From Thermus sp. 2.9 (GTDB taxonomy: Bacteria > Deinococcota > Deinococci > Deinococcales > Thermaceae): a stretch of 64,000 nt of DNA. A program made the position numbers and the translations under genes. The stretch covers positions 124,001-188,000 of the forward strand of contig NZ_JTJB01000001.1 of assembly GCF_000794385.1 (NCBI RefSeq). The letters run 5' to 3'. Positions 1-34,756 of the stretch are shown piece after piece; the stretch's first letter is position 1; the number at the start of each line of letters is the position of its first letter. Below the pieces are notes generated by a model that saw nothing but the letters and a program-made list of their open reading frames with translations, was not told the DNA's origin and did not search any database.

Positions 1-964
1 GCCCTAAAGCCTCCCAGAGCCCGCTAAGCCCCTCCTGGGGAAAGCGGCGGGCCAGGTGGAAGAGGGCATAGAGGGGAAGGGCCAAGGCGACAAGAGGGGG
101 GAGGAGGGCTAGGGCGTAGCCCAAGGGGGCGAAGGGTCCCAGGCGAAGGGGCTTATGGTGCCGGCTTGCTCCCTTTCCGGTGCGGGCCAGGGTGAGGCGG
201 CGGAGGAGAAGGCCCTCCAGCCACAAAAGCCCCCCGGTGAGAAGGAGGAGCAGCAGGGCCAGCCAGGCGGCGTACACCCGGTCAAAGGCGGCGCTGTACT
301 GCAGGTAGATGGCGTAGGAGAAGGTTTCGTAGCGCAGAAGGCTCACCGTGCCGAAGTCTCCCAGGACGTGGAGGCCCACCACCAGGTAGCCCGAGAGCAA
401 GGCGGGCAGAAGCTGGGGGAAAGCGGCCCGGAAGAAGGCCCGCCAAGGGCCCATCCCCAGGGTCCTCGCCGCCTCCTCCAAGGCGGGATCCAGGCCCAAA
501 AAGGCGGCGCGCAAGGAGAGGAAGAGGTAGGGGTAGGTGATGAAGGAAAGGACGAAAAGGGCCCCCACGTACCCCTCGAGGCGGGGCAAGGGCAGGATGC
601 CCCCCGGGCCGGTGGCGGCCAGGAGGACGTAAGCCCCCACGTACCCCGGGACGGCCAGGGGCAGGGTGAGGAGCAGGGAAAACAAGCGCTTGCCCTTGAG
701 GTCGGTGCGGGTGGTGAGGAAGGCGAGGGGCAGGGCGAGGAGGGTGGTGAGGGCCAGGACCCCCACGAGGAGGGCCAGGGTGTTGCGGAGGAGCTCCAGG
801 TTTTTGGGGCGAAGGAGGATTTCTTGGAGGGCGCCGGGGTCGGCCTCCAGGGCCCGCAGGACCAGGTAGGCCAGGGGCAAGGCCACCCCGCCCCCCGTGA
901 GGAGGGCGGGCACCAGGAAGGGCAAAAGCCCGGGCAGGTGGTGGAGGCCTCGAGGCCGGACCAT
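1..964 (-). CDS. Iron(III) ABC transporter permease (FbpB type), 3' end outside window
   Basis: Inner-membrane permease of a ferric-iron ABC importer; it would pass iron delivered by the binding protein encoded immediately upstream. Reading the minus strand from ATG at 964 gives an open frame to the window edge (about 321 residues, no stop). It is made of repeated hydrophobic segments and carries the binding-protein-dependent transport signature near residues 155-180 (EEAARTLGMGPWRAFFRAAF, the EAA loop that contacts the ATPase). FbpB proteins usually have two such halves, about 500 residues, so roughly the second half is missing here. The start codon directly follows the stop of the binding-protein gene (TAG then ATG, no gap), so the two genes are translationally coupled. 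The ATPase gene is not visible and may lie further left. Family assignment rests on context and the EAA loop; the exact metal is inferred. Confidence 0.85.
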   Translation of the reverse strand, partial: MVRPRGLHHLPGLLPFLVPALLTGGGVALPLAYLVLRALEADPGALQEILLRPKNLELLRNTLALLVGVLALTTLLALPLAFLTTRTDLKGKRLFSLLLTLPLAVPGYVGAYVLLAATGPGGILPLPRLEGYVGALFVLSFITYPYLFLSLRAAFLGLDPALEEAARTLGMGPWRAFFRAAFPQLLPALLSGYLVVGLHVLGDFGTVSLLRYETFSYAIYLQYSAAFDRVYAAWLALLLLLLTGGLLWLEGLLLRRLTLARTGKGASRHHKPLRLGPFAPLGYALALLPPLVALALPLYALFHLARRFPQEGLSGLWEALG

Positions 965-30828: not shown

Positions 30829-31899
30829 TTAGTAAACCCCGAGAAGGCGCAAGTAAGCCTCCCAGATGGCCGGCCCGAAGAAGAAGGCCGCCACCCCCCC
30901 GAGGGCCAGGTAGGGCCCAAAGGGGATTTTGCGCTGGCGGAAAAGGAGCCCGGCCAAAGCCCCGGCGAAGACCCCGAGGAAGAGGGCCAAGAAGGCGTAA
31001 AGCCCAAGCCAGGCGCCCAAGGCTCCCAAAAGCTTCACATCCCCGTAACCCAGGGCCACGGGCTCCTCGTCTTCCCCTTCCGGCACCGGGCGGAGGGCCC
31101 AGTAAAGCCCCCCGGCCAGGGCCAGGCCCCCCGCGGCGAGGAGGGCTCCTTTGAGGCTCGCCAGGAGGTCCAGGCCCAGGGCGGGGGCGAGGAGGAGGGC
31201 CAGGGGCAGAAGGGGCAGGGTCAGGCGGTCCGGCAGGACCACGGGCTTTCCGGTGCGCCCGGAAAGGGCCCAGGTGAGGAAGGCCAAGGCCATCCCCACC
31301 CCGGGGCCCAACAGCGCCCCGAAGAGGGCCGCCATGTGCACCTGGTGGGGCCCCACGGGCACCTCGGCCCGGCCCTCTTGGAAGCGCCTCATGAAGAGGT
31401 TGGCGTAGCCGGCGATGAGCCCAAGCCCTCCCGCCGCCAGGAGGGCCCCGTCCAGGGCCTCCCCGAAGGGGAGGGGAAAGGAAAGGAGCCAGGCCCCGAG
31501 GAGGCCCAGGAAGAGGAGGCCGTAGGTGAGCGCGTCGGGAAGCTCAAAGGTGTCCAGGTCAATGAAGGAGAGGGCCACGAGAAAGCCCAAGAAGGCGAAG
31601 ACCAAAAGCGCTTCCACCGAGGGCGGGTAAAAGAGGGCGGCGAGGAGGAAAAGCCCCCCCGTGAGCCCCTCCACCAAGGGGTAACGGGGGCTAATGGGCT
31701 TGCCGCAGTAGCGGCACCGCCCCCGAAGGCCCAGGTAGGAGAAGACGGGGACCAGGTCCAAGGCTGAAAGCCTGTGGGCGCAGTGGGGACAGCGGGAAGG
31801 GGGGAAGACGATGGATTCTCCCTTAGGCAGGCGGTGGATGACCACGTTGAGGAAGGAGCCCACCAAAAGGCCCAAGACCAGGGCGAAGAGGGGCCACAT
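30829..31899 (-). CDS. pilD: Prepilin peptidase / N-methyltransferase with duplicated second half
   Basis: Inner-membrane aspartic protease that cuts and methylates type IV pilins, needed for twitching and DNA uptake. Cytoplasmic zinc-binding CPHC (37-40) and CRYC (62-65). Catalytic aspartates in SFIDLDTFELPD (114-122) and GYGDVKLLG (284-292). The two sites are about 170 residues apart, against about 65 in the usual enzyme. The extra segment looks like a degenerate copy of the second half (GALLAAGGLG at 151 and GALLAAGGLA at 251). 356 residues. TAAAAT lies 6 bases before ATG 31899. Confidence 0.93.
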   Translation of the reverse strand: MWPLFALVLGLLVGSFLNVVIHRLPKGESIVFPPSRCPHCAHRLSALDLVPVFSYLGLRGRCRYCGKPISPRYPLVEGLTGGLFLLAALFYPPSVEALLVFAFLGFLVALSFIDLDTFELPDALTYGLLFLGLLGAWLLSFPLPFGEALDGALLAAGGLGLIAGYANLFMRRFQEGRAEVPVGPHQVHMAALFGALLGPGVGMALAFLTWALSGRTGKPVVLPDRLTLPLLPLALLLAPALGLDLLASLKGALLAAGGLALAGGLYWALRPVPEGEDEEPVALGYGDVKLLGALGAWLGLYAFLALFLGVFAGALAGLLFRQRKIPFGPYLALGGVAAFFFGPAIWEAYLRLLGVY

Positions 31900-32154: not shown

Positions 32155-33690
32155 GTGACGCCGGAAGCCGCTTACCAAAACCTCTTGGAGTTCCAAAGGG
32201 AAACCGCCTACCTGGCCTCCTTGGGGGCCTTGGCCGCTTGGGACCAGCGCACCATGATCCCCAGGAAGGGGCACGAGCACCGGGCCCGGCAGATGGCCGC
32301 CCTGGCCCGCCTCCTCCACCAGCGCATGACCGACCCCCGCATCGGGGAGTGGTTGGAGCGGGTGGAGGGTTCCCCCTTGGTGCAAGACCCCCTTTCCGAC
32401 GCGGCGGTGAACGTGCGGGAGTGGCGCCAGGCCTACGAGCGGGCCCGGGCCATTCCCGAAAGGCTCGCCGTGGAGCTGGCCCAGGCGGAAAGCGAGAGCG
32501 AAAGCTTTTGGGAAGAGGCAAGGCCCCGCAACGACTGGCAGGGCTTTTTGCCTTACCTCAAGCGGGTCTTCTCCCTGACCCAGGAGAAGGCCAACATCCT
32601 CTATAGCCTTCCCCCGGCCCCCGGGGACCCGCCTTACGGGGAGGTTTACGATGCCCTTTTGGACGGGTACGAGCCGGGGATGCGCGTGGAGGAGCTTCTA
32701 CCCCTCTTCGCCGAGCTCCGGAAAGGGCTAAGGGGGCTTTTGGACCGCATCCTGGGCAGCGCCAAGCAGCCCAGGACGGAGATCCTCCACCGCCCTTACC
32801 CCAAGGAGGCGCAGCGGGCCTTCGCCCTGGAGCTCCTTCAGGCCTGCGGGTACGACCTCGAGGCCGGCCGCCTGGACCCCACGGCCCACCCCTTTGAGAT
32901 CTCCATCGGCCCGGGGGACGTGCGCATCACCACCCGCTACTACGAGGACTTCTTCAACGCCGGCATCTTCGGCACCCTGCACGAGATGGGCCACGCCCTC
33001 TACGAGCAGGGCCTGCCCAAGGAGCACTGGGGCACTCCCAGGGGGGAGGCGGTCTCCTTGGGGGTGCACGAGTCGCAAAGCCGCACTTGGGAGAACCTGG
33101 TGGGCCGCTCCTTGGGCTTTTGGGAGCGCTTCTTCCCCCGGGCGAAGGAGGTCTTTGCGAGCCTCGCCGATGTGGGCCTAGAGGAGTTCCACTTCGCCGT
33201 GAACGCCGTGGCTCCCTCCCTCATCCGGGTGGAGGCCGACGAGGTCACCTACAACCTCCACATCCTGGTGCGCCTGGAGCTCGAGGTGGCCCTCTTCCGG
33301 GGCGAGCTCGCCCTGGAGGACCTTCCTGAGGCCTGGGCGGAGAAGTACCGGGCCTACCTCGGGGTGGCCCCCAAGGACTACAAGGACGGGGTCATGCAGG
33401 ATGTCCACTGGTCCGGGGGGCTTTTTGGCTACTTCCCCACCTACACCCTGGGCAACCTCTACGCCGCCCAGTTCTTCCAGAAGGCGGAGGCGGGGCTTGG
33501 GGCCTTGGAGCCCATGTTTGCCCGGGGGGAGTTCCGGCCCTTTTTGGACTGGAGCCGGGCCAAGATCCACGCCGAGGGGAGCCGTTTCCGCCCCAGGGCC
33601 CTGGTGGAGCGGGTGACCGGGGAAGCCCCGAGCGCCAAGCCCTTCCTGGCCTACCTGGAGCGCAAGTTCGCCGCCCTCTACGGCTTCTAG
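32155..33690 (+). CDS. M32 thermostable metallocarboxypeptidase (Taq type)
   Basis: Zinc carboxypeptidase removing C-terminal residues with broad specificity. Zinc site [11 protein letters not shown] (about 276-286) with the third ligand Glu in the [16 protein letters not shown] motif, and the family motif [23 protein letters not shown]. 511 residues, the length reported for carboxypeptidase Taq of Thermus aquaticus. GTG start is leaderless (TAGGAT plus 6 bases). The stop shares CTAG with the convergent MFS gene. Confidence 0.95.
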
Positions 33691-34756
33691 CCCCGCCGGG
33701 GCCAGACGGGGGGGAGGGCTAGGGCCAGGAGGAGGCTCGCCACCCACAAGGCCCCCTCCCCCCGGCCCAAGGCTTCGGCCCCTAGCCCCGCCAAGGCGGG
33801 GCCTAAGGCTTGGCCTAAGGCGAAGGCCGCCGTGGAAAGCCCCATGGCCCTGGGCCAGGCGGAAGGGGGGAGGAGGGCGCGGAAGGCCTGGGTGACGGCG
33901 GTGATGACCCCTAAGAAGGCCAGGCCGAAGAGGAAGGCGCTAAGCCCGGGAAGCCCCTGGGCCAAGGGGGGGAGGCTCGCCAAAAAGAGCACCAGGAGCA
34001 CGTGGAATAGCCCCCGCTTCCCCCCACCCGCTCCACCCAGGTACCCCAGACCACCCCTGTAAGGAGGGCGCCCAGGCCGAGGAGGGTGAAAAGCAGGGTC
34101 CAGTCCCCCACCGCCGTGGTCACGAAGGTCATGTAGCCGATGTACCCCGCCCCGTAGAGGCCGTAGGCCAGGAGAAGGGGGAGGATGGGCCTGAGGCTTC
34201 CCTCCCCCCGGGCGGGAGGCGGGGGCTCCTTGAGCGCTTTCCAGGTCCAAAGGGGGGCCAAGGAGAGGAGAAAGGCCCCAAGGCCAAGACGTCCCCAGGC
34301 GCTTTCCGGCGTGTCCGCTCCCAAGAGGAGCCAGGGGGCGAGGAGGAGGCCGAGGCCCACCCCGCCGTAGTAGGCGCCCAAGCTCCGCCCCGAGCTTCCC
34401 AGGGCCATGAGCAAGGCGGCGCCGCCCACGAAGACCAAGGCCCCCAAAGCGCCTTGGAGAAGCCTTAAGGCGAAGGCCAAGGCGTAGCCATCAGCCCCCG
34501 TGAGGGCCAAGACCCCCCCTTGGAGGAGGAGCGCCAGGAAAAACCCCCTCCGGTAGCCGAGCCACCCCAAAAGGCGGTGGCTCACGATGGCTCCCAGGAA
34601 ATACCCCAAGGTGTTGGCGCTACCCAAAAGCCCCCCTTGGGCGTAGGAAAGCCCCCAGGCGGCCTGCATGAGGGGAAGGACCAGGGCGTAAGCGAAGCGC
34701 CCCAGGCCCAGGGCCACCCCGGGCCCCAGGGTGAGGAGGAGGATCCTAATAGCCAT
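33687..34756 (-). pseudogene. MFS transporter (YbfB-like), broken by a 1-base frameshift
   Basis: Twelve-helix exporter-like carrier. Frame 1 gives MAIRILLLTLGPGVALGLGRFAYALVLPLMQ through GTWVERVG; after 34020 the transporter sequence continues in another frame (KRGLFHVLLVLFLASLPPLAQGLPGLSAFLFG to PPVWPRRG). The switch falls at a G6 run (minus strand, 34025-34020); G7 would restore one 356-residue protein. ATG 34756 overlaps the end of the ABC permease gene, so it belongs to that operon. Confidence 0.8.

Follow-up and report, generated by a model that had tools for sequence, protein, structure and literature searches.

The window analysed here, a 64,000-nucleotide stretch of the Thermus sp. 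2.9 genome, contains a gene that raises the question of whether a prepilin peptidase can carry part of its membrane domain twice and, if so, what the copy lacking a catalytic aspartate does. Prepilin peptidases and presenilin have in common a GxGD two-aspartate mechanism. An earlier note on this DNA had read the product as a prepilin peptidase with an internal duplication in which the first copy is dead. The features of the gene, which we call pilD, and of the two copies, A and B, are collected in the table.

The 356-residue protein matches Pfam A24_N (E 3e-36, 123.8 bits) and, in two stretches, Peptidase_A24 (E 2.4e-15, 57.3 bits against a curated cut-off of 26.5), in agreement with the earlier assignment as a prepilin peptidase; none of the NCBIfam models matches it above cut-off. 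The two CxxC pairs of the A24_N domain (C37, C40, C62 and C65) are invariant in 72 distinct sequences, as are P326, F327 and P329 of the PFGP motif. Judged by its sequence, the protein is a PilD-type A24 prepilin peptidase / N-methyltransferase of the GxGD type. No pil operon surrounds the gene. Its neighbours encode, on its own strand, a DUF2939 protein and a nitroreductase-like protein and, on the opposite one, an M32 carboxypeptidase and a LysM-NlpC/P60 protein. An MFS transporter gene (MFS_4) at 33687-34756 of the window, minus strand, is apparently frameshifted, its N-terminal part lying in a 281-residue open reading frame (33911-34756) and an overlapping frame (33687-34250) resembling the last helices. 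This pilD is the sole A24 gene of its genome and must therefore serve the six prepilins encoded there that score above the Pfam N_methyl cut-off.

Features of pilD and its product, with positions in the window.
Feature	Position	Strand	Basis or detail
pilD, prepilin peptidase / N-methyltransferase with duplicated four-helix module	30829..31899	minus	ATG start, 356 aa, Pfam
A24_N domain, residues 8-89 (helix 1, cytoplasmic four-cysteine domain, helix 2)	31633..31878	minus	Pfam PF06750
Predicted catalytic Asp 1, D114 (FIDLD), cytoplasmic end of helix 95-117	31558..31560	minus	invariant, 72/72
Copy A, residues 120-221 (LPDALT, GALLAAGG, former GxGD, junction helices; no catalytic Asp)	31237..31542	minus	self-alignment, profile comparison
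Copy A predicted helices 122-139, 145-175, 184-197, 199-216			AlphaFold2 model
Degenerate active-site motif GPHQVH, residues 183-188, Q186 in place of the GxGD Asp	31336..31353	minus	homolog alignment
RTGK, residues 215-218, end of junction helix matching the D114 region (T216), no Asp	31246..31257	minus	homolog alignment
Copy B, residues 222-320 (LPDRLT, GALLAAGG, GxGD, following helices)	30940..31236	minus	self-alignment, profiles
Copy B predicted helices 224-237, 245-268, 285-298, 301-320			AlphaFold2 model
GYGDVK, residues 284-289, GxGD motif	31033..31050	minus	predicted catalytic Asp 2, D287, at 31039-31041
PFGP motif and last helix, residues 326-352, single copy	30844..30924	minus	predicted helix 328-352

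When the protein was aligned with itself, residues 120-205 matched residues 222-306 with a BLOSUM62 local score of 100, above every one of 2000 shuffled sequences (43.5 +/- 7.5, maximum 84) and above shuffles confined to 10-residue windows (46.8 +/- 7.5, maximum 83); the reversed sequence scored 39. Family profiles of the two copies aligned with an hhalign probability of 98% (E 2e-13), and a profile of 23 single-copy relatives matched the protein twice, at residues 4-207 (173 bits) and 219-352 (55 bits). Together with the two Peptidase_A24 stretches, these results bear out the internal duplication. The repeat had been described earlier as the catalytic half, read from GALLAAGGLGL at residue 151 and GALLAAGGLAL at residue 251. 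Those motif positions are correct, but the extent is not: the unit begins at LPDALT (120) and LPDRLT (222) and comprises four helices in about 102 residues. Leucine, alanine and glycine are abundant in both segments, and the likeness might be put down to the composition of such membrane helices, with no duplication. We regard this as barely credible, given that the score exceeds shuffles preserving composition both overall and by window, that the profiles agree as strongly as they do and the helix quartets match, and that Pfam A24 matches occur in pairs in genome after genome. The shuffles and profiles rule out chance or composition as the origin of the repeat.

Over the 11-residue, nearly identical stretch, the copies have 10 residues but only 3 codons in common, which argues that they are old. 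Of the 111 genomes of the phylum, 105, from 27 of 31 genera, gave a homolog in protein searches, and Pfam A24 was likewise found in 105 of the 111, mostly as two matches within one gene; PF01478 matches are paired, mostly in one gene, in nearly all genomes of the phylum that have them. Nearly every genome with the duplicated pilD has no other A24 gene. A profile specific to the repeat, built from residues 140-300 and thus spanning the junction between the copies, matched 103 of the 111 genomes at E <= 1e-11 (most at 1e-44 to 1e-67) and none of 742 genomes from five other phyla, those of Mesotoga (103 genomes), Paenibacillus (348), Thermodesulfatator (247), Omnitrophota (35) and Coprothermobacter (9). 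In the phylum of a Synergistaceae genome, the full-length profile matched 129 of 151 genomes, and every listed match ends short of the second copy, most of them lying in frames of about 270 codons. A recent duplication or an assembly error is ruled out by the differing codons and by the recurrence of the layout in 103 of 111 genomes. The layout is not specific to this strain.

The duplication is present in all five families of the phylum that yielded homologs, and hence predates Thermus; its occurrence throughout the phylum rules out a trait specific to that genus. The earlier link to the many pilins of Thermus is not supported by this distribution, and here only the six prepilins pass the N_methyl cut-off. 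A phylogeny of the segments separates three groups: copies A (support 0.99), copies B (0.91) and the single-copy relatives (0.86). By sequence, a single duplication older than the split of the sampled families is indicated, its deeper placement being not firm given the few single-copy relatives sampled. No duplicated homolog was found in the viral collection, and no plasmid match covered 80% of the query, those listed covering only its first third. One Thermus genome has two duplicated-type pilD genes (L017 and L110, 81% and 77% identical to the query), and a Thermus-like pilD (L033, 81%) lies on a contig filed as Candidatus Bipolaricaulota that is probably misbinned Thermus DNA. In two Thermus genomes (L109; L111/L040, from Thermus parvatiensis RL) and in a Truepera-like genome (L106), pilD is split by stops or frameshifts, so that either the sequencing is at fault or the gene is truly inactive.

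Twelve membrane helices are predicted for the protein, where 8 are usual. With this layout, putative cytoplasmic loops, apart from the four-residue one after D114, average 1.3 to 5.7 lysines and arginines across the family, and periplasmic loops at most 0.2. This positive-inside pattern fits an arrangement in which the four added helices keep the topology. An AlphaFold2 model (pLDDT 74) contains two matching helix quartets offset by 100-102 residues, with helix starts at 122/145/184/199 and 224/245/285/301. Block pLDDT for residues 141-220 is mostly 48-66, and the placement of copy A in three dimensions is accordingly uncertain. In the alignment behind this model, single-copy relatives had already been placed against D114 and D287; a control model from Thermus sequences alone (pLDDT 56) gave nearly the same helix limits. 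The best structural matches of the first model were presenilins (Z 5.3-7.3), led by 7y5x_B (Z 7.3, 4.9 A over 87 residues), which by the guidance of the tool itself is not strong for a helical bundle. That alignment starts with residue 99 equated to 248, and a constant offset would put D114 on the catalytic D263 of presenilin-2. The control model gave no presenilin match, Foldseek returned no match at E <= 0.001, and FlaK was absent among the structural matches listed. We infer the pairing of D114 with D287 in space rather than observe it, because the alignment favoured this pairing and the control model is too weak.

The sequences distinguish the two copies at their active-site positions. G284, G286, D287 and V288 of copy B are invariant in 72 of 72 sequences, and D114 is present in every row of an alignment that includes 19 single-copy relatives. 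At position 186 of copy A, aspartate never occurs among 72 distinct sequences (glutamine in 50), so copy A has lost the GxGD aspartate that copy B retains, as had been proposed. The proposed spacing of about 170 residues also held: D114 and D287 are 173 residues apart, compared with 64 (D138 to D202) in an ordinary relative (L043). Position 216, at the end of the junction helix, is likewise never aspartate (T in 39, A in 11, S in 9, L in 8), and lysine or arginine occupies 218 in 71 of 72. Because D114 lies before copy A and neither 186 nor 216 is ever aspartate, the site could not be formed by either copy on its own. Had the duplicated unit started with the first-Asp helix, each of the copies would have lost an aspartate; had it started just after, only copy A would have. 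Ungapped profile scores for the junction helix (199-219) favour descent from the first-Asp helix or from the post-GxGD helix, depending on the stretch scored. Reading T216 as the lost first aspartate of copy B depends on the duplication breakpoint and is not proven by these sequences.

The degenerate site keeps a pattern. It recurs as a polar [HDE]-Q-V-[HNY] pattern, with position 188 mostly H or N, and position 185 is H, D, E, P, L, Q or M among homologs. Aspartate at 185 (window 31345-31347), one residue before the lost GxGD Asp, as in MDQVN, is found in 24 of 72 sequences, and Thermus has histidine there. Across the same 72 sequences G157, P181 and G198 are invariant and position 172 is always R or K. 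Copy A might thus act directly in substrate handling or catalysis, its altered motif lying beside D114 and D287 and, with P181 and R/K172, binding the prepilin leader or tuning the Asp pair. The recurring pattern, the invariant P181, the basic residue at 172 and the predicted position of the motif at the same cytoplasmic face all favour such a role; position 185 is not strictly conserved, however, and copy A has no reliable placement in three dimensions. We consider a direct role rather unlikely, though a serious contender.

Copy A is nearly as conserved across the phylum as copy B (mean identity 0.47 versus 0.50). The earlier description of it as dead is therefore apt for catalysis but not as decay, in view of this identity and the invariant residues. 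A neutral relic, or a segment that adds heat stability only, would account for the absence of the GxGD aspartate from copy A in every sequence, and the window does come from a thermophile; but copy A has been retained through the phylum with invariant residues and an identity near that of copy B, and we judge this explanation quite improbable. The constraint on copy A favours a role as scaffold or in substrate handling over a relic. Copy A is most likely an old, selected, non-catalytic extra module, for which a structural role is possible.

We propose the following sequence of events and division of labour. A stretch of the gene that encodes four membrane helices, about 102 residues long, would have undergone tandem duplication within it in an ancestor of the phylum as sampled. 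By analogy with the family, D114 and D287 would form a di-aspartyl site at the cytoplasmic face of the membrane that cleaves prepilin leader peptides, so that the active site brings together a helix preceding copy A and the GxGD helix in copy B, and the four-cysteine domain would methylate the new N-terminus. Less certainly, copy A would be a non-catalytic four-helix scaffold beside the catalytic core, where it holds the core helices or lines the path of the substrate, and its altered motif would lie at the cytoplasmic interface. In a different packing, D114 would sit against the first two helices of copy A, and copy B would supply the GxGD helix onward. The fit to a single-copy profile stays at 220-224 bits wherever the switch from A to B is made, as far as residue 182, and both helix pairs look equally ordinary, with only the GxGD helix discriminating (208 bits). 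Such an equal fit favours neither packing, and we think the exchange of parts unlikely. We conclude that the sole A24 enzyme of this genome, with its tandem-duplicated module, probably has a D114-D287 site and, less certainly, uses copy A as a non-catalytic scaffold; on this analysis, the duplicated enzyme is most likely an active prepilin peptidase. More speculatively, and against the odds in our estimate, type IV pilus biogenesis in the phylum may run on an intramolecular pseudo-dimer of the GxGD core that draws one aspartate from ahead of its first copy and the other from its second, the silent first site being reshaped into a conserved element for substrate recognition or regulation.

Searches of the open literature found no description of a duplicated prepilin peptidase; the parts are known, and the phylum-fixed duplicated layout appears undescribed in the open papers searched. 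By tolerating four extra helices between its catalytic aspartates, the enzyme reveals where the core needs to stay in contact, and it offers a thermostable target for structural work. The duplication would also mark a trait common to the phylum and absent from the 742 genomes of five others. In Deinococcus radiodurans, deletion of pilD abolishes transformation (PMC7314969).

Among other proteins, a 377-residue A24 peptidase on a contig of the viral collection (L114, 1944-3077) also has a long distance from first Asp to GxGD, but its insert, by our reading of the sequence, is polar and non-membrane rather than a second A24 copy. The gene after it resembles a tRNA-dihydrouridine synthase, and the contig may be bacterial DNA. 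Presenilin shares the two-Asp mechanism in principle and gave the best structural matches of one model, but differs in family, substrates and domain make-up, and the match may reflect only the shared core. FlaK (A24B, PDB 3S0X), the only solved A24 relative found in this analysis, has the same GxGD di-aspartyl core and gave a weak 3s0x profile match (E 0.0017); with six transmembrane helices and a soluble domain of another kind (PMC4471445), it has, unlike the Thermus enzyme, no second copy. For PilD, the catalytic roles of both aspartates and the four-cysteine domain are established (PMC3584216). Bacterial PilD, such as that of Pseudomonas aeruginosa, shares with the Thermus protein the four-cysteine domain, the two aspartates, GxGD, PFGP and a full profile match, whereas the Thermus enzyme has four extra helices between its aspartates by duplication, at a spacing of 173 rather than about 64 residues.
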